NCBI RefSeq assembly: GCF_002980555.1
Contig: NZ_PVBT01000002.1
Coordinates: 248,001 to 312,000 of the forward strand
DNA: 64,000 nucleotides
Direction of reading: 5' to 3'
Origin: Phyllobacterium myrsinacearum
GTDB lineage: Bacteria > Pseudomonadota > Alphaproteobacteria > Rhizobiales > Rhizobiaceae
In this document: positions 52,673 to 55,415 of the stretch, in pieces
Layout of the letters: every line of letters begins with the position of its first letter
Numbering within the stretch: the first letter of the stretch is position 1
Program-made: the position numbers and the translations under genes
Notes under the pieces: generated by a model
Database searches by the model: none
Told to the model about the DNA's origin: nothing
The model's input: the letters and a program-made list of their open reading frames with translations, nothing else

Positions 52673-53710
52673 ATGTCGAACATGATGAAGGCACTGGTAA
52701 AGGCAAAGGCCGAACCCGGCATCTGGATGGAACACGTTCCCGTGCCGGAGCCCGGTCCCAACGATGTGCTGATCCGCGTCAAGAAGTCTGCCATCTGCGG
52801 CACCGACGTTCATATCTACAATTGGGATCAGTGGGCGCAGGCGACGATTCCGGTGCCGATGGTTGTCGGGCATGAGTTCTGCGGCGAGATTGCCGACATC
52901 GGCTCGGCGGTCACAAAGTATAAGGTCGGGCAGCGGGTTTCCGGCGAGGGGCATATTGTCTGCGGCACCTGCCGCAACTGCCGGGCGGGCAGGGGCCATC
53001 TTTGCCGCAACACGCTGGGTGTCGGCGTCCATCGTCCCGGCTCGTTCGGCGAATATGTGTGCATTCCGGAATACAATGTCGTGCCGATTCCCGATGATAT
53101 TTCCGACGAGATCGCCGCGATTTTCGATCCGTTCGGCAATGCGGTTCACACCGCGCTGAGTTTCGATCTGGTGGGCGAGGATGTGCTGGTCACGGGCGCC
53201 GGGCCCATCGGCATCATGGGTGCGCTGGTTGCCAAGCGTTCGGGCGCCCGCAAGGTCGTCATCACCGACATCAATCCGTCCCGCCTTGCGCTTGCCAAGA
53301 AACTGGGCATCGATCACGTGGTCGATGCATCGAAGGAAAACCTCGCCGACGTCATGCGCCAGATCGGCATGACGGAAGGTTTTGACGTCGGCCTCGAAAT
53401 GTCCGGCGCCGCGCCGGCCTTCCGCGACATGATCGACAAGATGAACAATGGCGGCAAGATTGCCATTCTCGGCATCGCGCCGACGGGCTTCGAGATCGAC
53501 TGGAACAAGGTCATTTTCAAGATGCTCAACCTGAAGGGCATTTACGGCCGGGAAATGTTCGAGACCTGGTACAAGATGATTGCCTTCGTGCAAGGGGGGC
53601 TTGATCTCAGCCAGATCATCACCCACCGCCTGCCGATCGATGATTTCCAGGCGGGTTTCGATGCCATGCGCTCGGGAAGCTCGGGCAAGGTTGTCCTGAG
53701 CTGGCACTGA
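52673..53710 (+). CDS. tdh: L-threonine 3-dehydrogenase
   Basis: 345 residues, zinc-containing medium-chain dehydrogenase. Catalytic zinc ligands CGTD and GHEFCGE, structural zinc Cys cluster [15 protein letters not shown], cofactor motif [10 protein letters not shown]. It oxidises threonine to 2-amino-3-ketobutyrate with NAD+. AGGAAA precedes the ATG. In an operon after kbl, together turning threonine into glycine and acetyl-CoA. Two hairpins follow the stop (53730-53775). Confidence 0.97.
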
Positions 53711-53729
53711 AATAGTGCCCTGTTTCGCA

Positions 53730-53775
53730 ATGACGCCATTTCATGGCGTCATGATCGGCGCAGCAATGCGCCGAT
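53730..53775 (+). other. Tandem hairpins between tdh and the MfnB-like/FolB gene
   Basis: Hairpin 1: ATGACGCCAT (53730-53739) with 53743-53752. Hairpin 2: ATCGGCGCA (53754-53762) with TGCGCCGAT (53767-53775) closed by a GCAA tetraloop. Both are perfect and almost touch. No U-run, so they are not classic terminators. They could be mRNA stabilisers, REP-like repeats or leader structures of the gene at 53812. Confidence 0.5.
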
Positions 53776-53811
53776 ACATGTAGTTCATGGTGCATCCGGA
53801 GGTTTTTGCCC

Positions 53812-54918
53812 ATGACCAAGATGCTTGCCACCGTCCGTAGTCCTGAAGAAGCGGATATCGCCCTTCAGTGCGGTGCCGATATCATTGACGTACCAGCATC
53901 TGATCTGGAAGCGCTGCAGCCCTATGCAAAGGCGGCGCGCGGCAAGGCCGTGCTGTGTGCAACGCTGCCACAGGCGCCGCTTGCATCCCGTGCCGGGGAA
54001 CTGGCCGGTGCAGGGCTCGGTTTCATCGGCATTCCGGTCGAAGCGTCCACGCCGCTCCATTCGCTGCCCGATTTGCCCGGTTCGACACGATGGATGGCGG
54101 TCGTTCACGTGGACCGGACGCGCGATCTGCCCGATATATCCGGCCTGTCGTCTCAGGGTTTTGCCGCGATCATGCTGGATACCAGCAACGGATCGCGGCT
54201 TTTAAACCATGTGTCGCTTGCCCAAATCGACGCCTATGTGCGGGAGTGCCATGCGCTTTCGATTCTGGTCGGCATTGCCGGTGCGCTTGAAACGCCGGAT
54301 ATTCCGCGGCTTCTTAGCTTCCAGCTCGATATTCTGGGTTTCAGGGAAGCCCTTTTCGACACGGCACATGCGGGCGCGATCAGTGTTGAGGCGGCGTCGC
54401 GAATCCGCGAGCTCATTCCTCAGGAGCGGCAGGGCAGTCTTGCGCCGGGTGTCGACTATCAATTGCTGGCCGCGCGCGGCTATTTCCCCGATCCGGCCGA
54501 AGAGGGGCTTGGTACGGACAAGATTTTCGTGCGTGACTTCGTCCTGCCTGTTCATATCGGCGCTTACAGTTTCGAGCACGGCATTGCCCAGAAGATGCGT
54601 TTTGACGTAACGGCGGAAGTCCTGCGTGTCACTCGCAACCCTGAGGACATGCGCCATATCGTGTCCTACGACCTGATCATGGATGGCATTCGCGCCATCG
54701 TTGCCCGTGGTCATGTCGAGCTGTCGGAAACACTGGCCGAGCGTATTGCCGCCTTCATCCTCGAGAATCCGCGTGTCACCCGTGTGGTGGTACGGGCCGA
54801 AAAGCTGGAGCTGGGGCCGGGGGGCGTGGGTGTCGAGATCGAGCGCAGGCGCGAGACGCAGATCGCGCCGGTCCTGCCCGCGAACGTGCCCGCATCGCAC
54901 CGCAGGCGCGATCATTGA
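53812..54918 (+). CDS. Fusion of MfnB-like domain and dihydroneopterin aldolase (FolB)
   Basis: 368 residues. Residues 1 to about 215 resemble (5-formylfuran-3-yl)methyl phosphate synthase, MfnB: GADIIDV (21-27), AIMLDTS (about 119-125), DILGFREA (about 173-180). But the position of the Schiff-base Lys of the archaeal enzyme (DVKNP) is Pro28, and the second Lys region reads GALETPDI. Residues about 236-355 are FolB-like, with Tyr296 (VSYDLIM), Glu in LSETLAERIA and Lys341 (RAEKLELGPGGVGVEIER), all expected active-site residues. So the aldolase half looks active in pterin synthesis, and the first half degenerate or altered. GGAGG nine bases before the ATG. Convergent with fae, suggesting tetrahydromethanopterin synthesis. 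Confidence 0.75.
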   Translation: MTKMLATVRSPEEADIALQCGADIIDVPASDLEALQPYAKAARGKAVLCATLPQAPLASRAGELAGAGLGFIGIPVEASTPLHSLPDLPGSTRWMAVVHVDRTRDLPDISGLSSQGFAAIMLDTSNGSRLLNHVSLAQIDAYVRECHALSILVGIAGALETPDIPRLLSFQLDILGFREALFDTAHAGAISVEAASRIRELIPQERQGSLAPGVDYQLLAARGYFPDPAEEGLGTDKIFVRDFVLPVHIGAYSFEHGIAQKMRFDVTAEVLRVTRNPEDMRHIVSYDLIMDGIRAIVARGHVELSETLAERIAAFILENPRVTRVVVRAEKLELGPGGVGVEIERRRETQIAPVLPANVPASHRRRDH

Positions 54919-54932
54919 GCATCAGGCTTGCG

Positions 54933-55415
54933 CTATGATTTCAGGCTGAGTATCTCGGCAGCCGTCGGACGGCCCGTTACGGCGCGCTGAATGGCTTCTT
55001 TGGTCGCCTGGTAGTTGTAGTCGTGTATCCTGCTGTCGTCGCGCGCCTGCCAGTGAATGAATACGCCGACGCAGATAAACAGATTGTCGGCTTCCTCGAG
55101 CGGGATCACGCCTTCCGCAACGCAATCGCGCACCGCCTTGGCAATACCCGATTGCGCCGGCCCGAACAGCTGCATGGCCTGACCGGACCCGCGGATCGTA
55201 ACCTTGTTGTACATCACCGTATTGGGCTTGCACGGCAGGTTCGGCTCGATCACGGCAAGCACCGACGTGAACCCATCCTTGTTGTTGGTCAGGGCGTTGC
55301 AGAACGCGGTTTCCACCGCGCTGCCGCGCGGGCCGATCAACAGGTCGATATGGGCAACCTCATTGCCTTCGCCGACCAGGGATTCTCCCACCATGACTCT
55401 GTTGATGATCTGCAT
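54933..55415 (-). CDS. fae: Formaldehyde-activating enzyme (Fae)
   Basis: 160 residues, near the 170 of methylotroph Fae. The enzyme condenses formaldehyde with tetrahydromethanopterin to methylene-H4MPT. Very clear family wording: [33 protein letters not shown] with the catalytic His22, [53 protein letters not shown], and [28 protein letters not shown]. The C-terminus ends soon after the last conserved block. GGAGG seven bases before the ATG. Separated from the convergent FolB fusion by 14 bases. The rest of the H4MPT pathway is not in the window. A specialised paralogue is possible, but the key residues are kept. Confidence 0.93.

Follow-up and report, generated by a model that had tools for sequence, protein, structure and literature searches.

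The window, a stretch of 64,000 nucleotides from the genome of Phyllobacterium myrsinacearum, carries on its forward strand a gene (53812..54918) that encodes a protein of 368 amino acids and starts with an ATG, with a GGAGG 9 nucleotides before it. The product joins an MfnB-like (4HFCP_synth) barrel half (residues 1-206; 53812..54429), delimited by profile, alignment and model, via a linker of low model confidence (residues 207-235; 54430..54516) to a FolB (dihydroneopterin aldolase) half (residues 236-346; 54517..54849), in which Glu255, Tyr286, Glu306 and Lys331 are present. Within the barrel half lies a motif specific to such fusions (residues 157-168, GALETPDIPRLL; 54280..54315), all of these parts being read from the forward strand. 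Upstream of the fusion and following kbl, we located tdh (L-threonine 3-dehydrogenase; 52673..53710, forward strand), which was named after annotated syntenic loci and whose start was placed to agree with that of an annotated syntenic tdh, 1038 nucleotides long. On the other side, a second gene for a formaldehyde-activating enzyme (fae; 54933..55415, reverse strand) is convergent with the fusion and 14 bp away from it, in agreement with the preliminary description, which had placed fae next to the fusion. This second Fae is 78% identical to the methylotrophy-cluster Fae of the same genome, and a corresponding Fae occurs in Phyllobacterium sp. 628, a genome without mch.

The interval between tdh and the fusion (53711..53811, forward strand) is a conserved leader in which two perfect hairpins lie side by side, at 53730-53752 and 53754-53775. 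Over five loci, its mean pairwise nucleotide identity was 0.877, versus 0.876 for the coding end of tdh and 0.714 for the barrel half, and its RNA fold had a z score of -3.3; a comparison with Rfam gave no credible match. An exact search found the first hairpin at 14 of 185 loci, each being the same locus as in the window; it did not occur before intact copies of the fusion.

Both halves of the protein passed the cut-offs of their Pfam models, with 71.9 bits (E = 8.5e-20) against a gathering score of 22.4 for PF04476 (4HFCP_synth, the MfnB family) and 64.4 bits (E = 1.6e-17) against a cut-off of 31.8 for PF02152 (FolB). The open reading frame and its coordinates hold as well, so that the earlier claim of an MfnB-type barrel without its lysines and a FolB in one polypeptide is borne out, including by the profile comparison it had suggested for the first half. 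Among the NCBIfam models, the best ones for the first half were of the MfnB type and stayed far under their cut-offs (the top score being 107 of 297 bits). The second half passed TIGR00526, the folB domain model (47.5 over 45.05 bits), and missed the cut-off of TIGR00525, the folB equivalog (47.6 of 72.15 bits); it is therefore by its residues and context that we call it a dihydroneopterin aldolase. A chance fusion or frame artefact was ruled out, since orthologues (L003 to L006) share 77 to 90% identity. In the alignment of these Phyllobacterium copies, the linker is almost unchanged.

Structure prediction with AlphaFold2 (nine sequences) gave a mean pLDDT of 72 and a pTM of 0.55, with values near 85 in the barrel half; given that the pLDDT of the linker was below 50, we do not trust the placement of the two domains relative to each other. 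For the first half, eight strands in barrel order were predicted, and a Foldseek search with the model returned MfnB MJ1099 (4U9P and 4RC1; E = 1e-11) as the top PDB matches, with dihydroneopterin aldolases and other barrels ranking next. The predicted fold is that of an MfnB-type TIM barrel, consistent with membership in this family, and with these top matches we ruled out another TIM-barrel family. In the lysine-intact fusion L007, residues 95-106 form a helix, while the window model shows none between the strands at 69-76 and 93-99.

Using MJ1099 as the numbering reference for the barrel, we found by alignment that the site of the Schiff-base Lys27 is occupied by Pro28 in the window protein, the site of Lys85 by Gly73, and that Lys155 is deleted (MLDTSN--GSRLLNH). 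The equivalents of Asp25 and Asp151, namely, Asp26 and Asp123, are both present. According to PMC6604932, two lysines and two aspartates are all essential in MfnB, with Lys27 forming the Schiff base. With the Schiff-base lysine and its partners lost, the MfnB half would be unable to make furan phosphate; judged from the aligned residues, furan synthesis without the essential lysines is very unlikely. Lysines at shifted positions were ruled out by the alignments. The preliminary description had correctly read DIIDVPAS at the Lys27 site, on which our alignments agree, but had taken GALETPDI for the second lysine region; this stretch is really the beta7-alpha7 segment (AGSIKKEHI in MJ1099), the Lys155 site being the deleted one given above. 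It had also listed Tyr296, a glutamate and Lys341 as kept in FolB, where the residues are indeed retained but the true numbers are Tyr286 and Lys331. The set of Glu255, Tyr286, Glu306 and Lys331, the active-site residues of dihydroneopterin aldolases, was present in 85 of the 85 fusions examined (L029 and L118 excluded).

The genome containing the window (5.4 Mb) encodes a second PF04476 protein, a lysine-intact MfnB-FolB fusion (C4:228206-229372; L001, L042) that sits in the H4MPT/methylofuran cluster, with an AA_kinase gene following it and with mch on the same contig at a distance of 7.6 kb. This copy has the architecture of the window protein and shares with it the linker, the motif and the FolB half, at ∼56% identity between the complete proteins, but differs in having K27, K85 and K155. 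Having two fusions, the window genome contains two FolB proteins (PF02152). The AA_kinase match (PF00696) is presumably what MfnE would give; at another locus, the gene after the intact fusion (L083:13167-13802) is annotated as a dihydroneopterin aldolase, and its positional equivalent in the window genome is the one that matches PF00696. The same arrangement of two copies is seen in Phyllobacterium sp. T1293, where the intact copy lies on plasmid pT1293c in a neighborhood with xoxF5, pqq, a HisA-like gene, fae and mch. The lysine-poor copy is on plasmid pT1293a, where, just as in the window, the genes are arranged kbl-tdh-fusion-fae with fae convergent. Both copies together with mch occur in T1293, the window genome, G584 (L003), G585 (L004), G149 (L005) and G588 (L008, an unclassified Rhizobiales record), and two further genomes, P. 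sp. 628 (G586, L006) and G063 (L044), contain the lysine-poor copy alone, without mch. The latter pattern fits a back-up FolB that outlived the loss of the methylotrophy cluster.

A different reading of the second copy is that it is a dedicated supplier of the H4MPT pterin, acting with the adjoining second fae in C1 metabolism. The synteny with fae in the window and in two annotated Phyllobacterium loci would suit this reading, as would the FolB half, whose type also occurs next to separate mfnB genes. However, P. sp. 628 has the fusion and fae without mch, and fae, being convergent, lies outside the operon of the fusion, which makes a dedicated pterin supplier improbable in our estimation. 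The persistence of the copy in P. sp. 628 likewise leaves the earlier proposal of a role in making C1 cofactors weak for the window copy.

To place the gene in a wider context, we turn to its distribution. The window protein was matched in 73 of the 297 genomes of the host family; 71 of these have the fusion, one (G171) was matched through a FolB-like stretch only, and one (G088) has a fusion-type FolB without the barrel. Elsewhere in the host order, fusions were also found in families f5, f28 and f42, and in several other families of the order mfnB and folB are separate neighboring frames. Outside the order, there was no full-length match among the matches listed, in order of E-value, for 385 genomes of the class. 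It is likely that a neighboring gene pair became a fusion inside this order, where the fusion is a normal architecture of the intact enzyme; neither this nor the intact copy in the window genome was anticipated in the preliminary description. No paper describing this fusion or a lysine-less MfnB came up in a search of the open-access literature.

Some loci depart from this general picture. In L099 and L100 (genomes G368 and G572), lysine-intact mfnB and folB lie in one open frame connected by a long linker, with an ambiguous start of FolB, and the motif is absent; these are either neighbors without an intervening stop or an independent, unfinished fusion. The barrel-less FolB of G088 (L116), a genome without mch, lies near an amino-acid-kinase-like frame (named by eye), and it contradicts the idea that the barrel was never shed, which we discarded. 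In several reduced genomes (L051, L054, L050, L074 and L076), the lysine-poor fusion is flanked on one side by a frame for a TerC-like membrane protein and on the other by similar membrane protein frames (names again by eye), and these similar flanks suggest vertical inheritance.

We then compared the lysine state of the fusions with the presence of the H4MPT pathway. In total, 86 fusions were typed, 57 with Lys27, Lys85 and Lys155 and 29 missing at least one of them. Not included in the typing were L010, a distant separate MfnB; L092, which is cut by a contig end so that its motif is present and its lysines are unreadable; L029 from genome G057, in which fusion and mch are both frameshifted; and L001, L002, L009 and L012, which duplicate other rows. 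That each typed row has one open frame follows from the design of the typing and was not counted as evidence. The frameshifts in mch and at the start of the fusion in G057 would stem either from errors in sequencing or from ongoing loss of the pathway.

The 57 intact fusions come from 57 genomes, all of which have mch. Conversely, every one of the 51 family genomes with mch has the fusion, 50 of them typed as intact and one (G057) frameshifted. A lysine-poor fusion is the only fusion found in 23 genomes, none of which has mch (23/23), and it occurs as a second copy in six genomes with mch, the window genome among them (L003, L004, L005, L008, L011 and L081), where the other copy is fully lysine intact. 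Two of these 23, G500 and G544, lie outside the family; their lysine typing preceded the look-up of mch. A search for Fae and Ftr in 26 genomes agreed with the mch assignment, with neither protein found in the 22 genomes without mch and both found in the four with it. PF02152 picked out a single FolB per genome in all 20 family genomes whose sole fusion is degenerate.

In a FolB-half tree (84 rows and 117 columns, with many forks unresolved and L117 and L118 left out), the lysine label requires seven changes, five of them on well-supported branches. In five independent pairs, absence of the pathway goes with lysine loss in 4.7 pairs on average and never in the reverse direction; with the second copies excluded, this holds for five of five pairs (sign test, p = 0.0625, the pairs being too few for a lower value). 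By comparison, 54 MfnB proteins that are not fused in this way (L099 and L100 counted among them) all have the three lysines, Lys85 included, bearing in mind that this set consists of the best-scoring matches to an intact query plus 20 chosen among the matches listed, so that lysine-poor separate copies could be undersampled. As judged from its residues and their distribution, the lysine-poor form is a predicted pseudoenzyme that recurs.

The replacements differ between lineages. In the lysine-poor fusions, Lys27 is replaced by P, L, G, T, A, E, R or others depending on the lineage, and Lys85, Lys155 and the RGA phosphate loop are also lost in many of them, the RGA loop being mostly gone. Asp163 and Arg166 are the only invariant barrel-half positions among the lysine-poor fusions (29/29), and they are equally invariant in the intact ones (57/57), i.e., in all 86 typed fusions. 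They belong to the motif A-G-x-L-E160-x-P162-D163-[IV]-x-R166-L (short form ExPD[IV]xR), in which E160 is found in 26 of 29 lysine-poor and 57 of 57 intact fusions and P162 in 25 of 29 and 57 of 57, respectively. The proline before Arg166 is variable (26/29 lysine-poor and 49/57 intact), with serine in the intact copy of the window genome. At the place of the motif, MJ1099 reads AGSIKKEHIPIL, and among the 54 other MfnB proteins ExPDxxR was found in none and the Asp and Arg alone in four; if L099 and L100 were true fusions, the motif would be present in 86 of 88. By sequence comparison, the motif accompanies the fusion and outlasts the active site, and it may form an inter-domain contact.

Selection on the two halves was assessed by pairwise dN/dS (NG86) for pairs with a FolB identity of at least 0.87 and a dS of 0.1 to 1.5 in both halves. 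The median for the barrel half was 0.188 among 11 usable lysine-poor pairs (range, 0.09 to 0.23), of which ten stem from one clade, versus 0.179 among 79 intact pairs; the pairs are not independent. For the FolB half, the medians were 0.024 (lysine poor) and 0.082 (intact), and the ratio of barrel to FolB dN was 7.9 and 3.1, respectively. The pooled medians of 0.571 and 0.366 were not used, since they mix in pairs with saturated dS. An initial reading of weaker constraint on the lysine-poor barrel was dropped because dN/dS was no different once more intact pairs were added. The barrel is therefore constrained, although its changes accumulate faster next to a FolB that is very conserved.

These observations bear on what the barrel is still doing. 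The preliminary description had proposed a new catalytic or a regulatory role for the first domain. A newly gained catalytic activity would be in line with the presence of Asp26 and Asp123 in the Phyllobacterium copies and with the retention of the predicted fold and of constraint. Against it, the Lys27 substitutes differ between lineages, the RGA phosphate loop is mostly lost, no new residue is shared, the invariant Asp163 and Arg166 are common to the intact copies, and lysine loss tracks the absence of H4MPT, so that we regard new catalysis as highly improbable. The regulatory option fares better, as a noncatalytic (structural or regulatory) role is favored by a dN/dS near 0.19 together with the fusion-specific motif. 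Alternatively, the MfnB half could be a neutral, decaying relic, retained only as the upstream in-frame part of an essential FolB. The recurrence of lysine loss with pathway absence, the finding that 0 of 54 other MfnB proteins are lysine poor, the missing barrel in G088, its loss of a Pfam match in L117 and L118 and the barrel-to-FolB dN ratio above that of intact copies all point this way, but the low dN/dS of the 11 lysine-poor pairs (most from one clade) and the invariance of Asp163 and Arg166 speak against free decay, and we consider a neutral relic unlikely.

Instead, we think that the gene probably encodes a dihydroneopterin aldolase for folate that carries a catalytically dead furan-synthase barrel, kept for a noncatalytic reason. 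The gene would have arisen by duplication of the gene for the MfnB-FolB fusion enzyme found in the H4MPT/methylofuran cluster. Given that the FolB residues are intact, that no other FolB was found and that the gene persists without the pathway, its FolB half would act as a dihydroneopterin aldolase, mainly for folate, and the cell would thereby keep a FolB independent of the dispensable methylotrophy cluster. The MfnB half would no longer make furan phosphate and would most likely be kept because, via the fusion motif, it helps the FolB half to fold, assemble or take its position. A structural role of the barrel is thus plausible on the predicted features; the more specific idea that the dead barrel is a working noncatalytic part, with ExPD[IV]xR anchoring or shaping the FolB assembly or active site, is a tentative one that we put forward as a possibility. 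Several points count against the preferred reading of a folate enzyme with a retained dead barrel. The barrel is not strictly needed, since G088 has a fusion-type FolB without it, and the higher dN ratio is what partial decay would also give. Further points are the faint barrels of L117 and L118, the missed TIGR00525 cut-off, the absence of the motif from L099 and L100, and the six two-copy genomes with mch, which allow a second copy serving the H4MPT pterin.

If the barrel does work in this way, the FolB of many Rhizobiales, those with reduced genomes included, would depend on a fossil of methylotrophy, and the motif would be a candidate inter-domain element in a folate enzyme. The system offers a countable natural experiment on the fate of one half of a bifunctional enzyme after pathway loss: in the samples examined, separate MfnB proteins always have their lysines, and fused MfnB persists as a putative pseudoenzyme. 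The MfnB half is a molecular trace of a lost H4MPT/methylofuran pathway that is readable even at genome sizes of 1.0 to 1.5 Mb. There is also a consequence for annotation, since the label "(5-formylfuran-3-yl)methyl phosphate synthase" on the T1293 pT1293a protein, which is without the catalytic lysine, would wrongly predict methylofuran synthesis.

Among known systems, the closest in predicted fold is MJ1099, the 4-HFC-P synthase MfnB of Methanocaldococcus jannaschii (the Foldseek matches above), with which the window protein has in common the two aspartate equivalents and from which it differs in being without Lys27, Lys85 and Lys155 and in being fused to FolB, at ∼21% identity. Orf22/MfnB of Methylorubrum extorquens (PMC8141765) is a homologue from the furan-phosphate synthase family that belongs to the methylofuran cluster; the window protein, a fusion, is by comparison lysine poor and encoded away from such a cluster. 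Finally, the FolB half has in common with the dihydroneopterin aldolases of PDB 3V9O and 1DHN the fold and the Glu/Tyr/Glu/Lys set, but it has a shorter post-lysine loop (KLELGPGGVGVEI) and, at the N terminus of the protein, the additional barrel.
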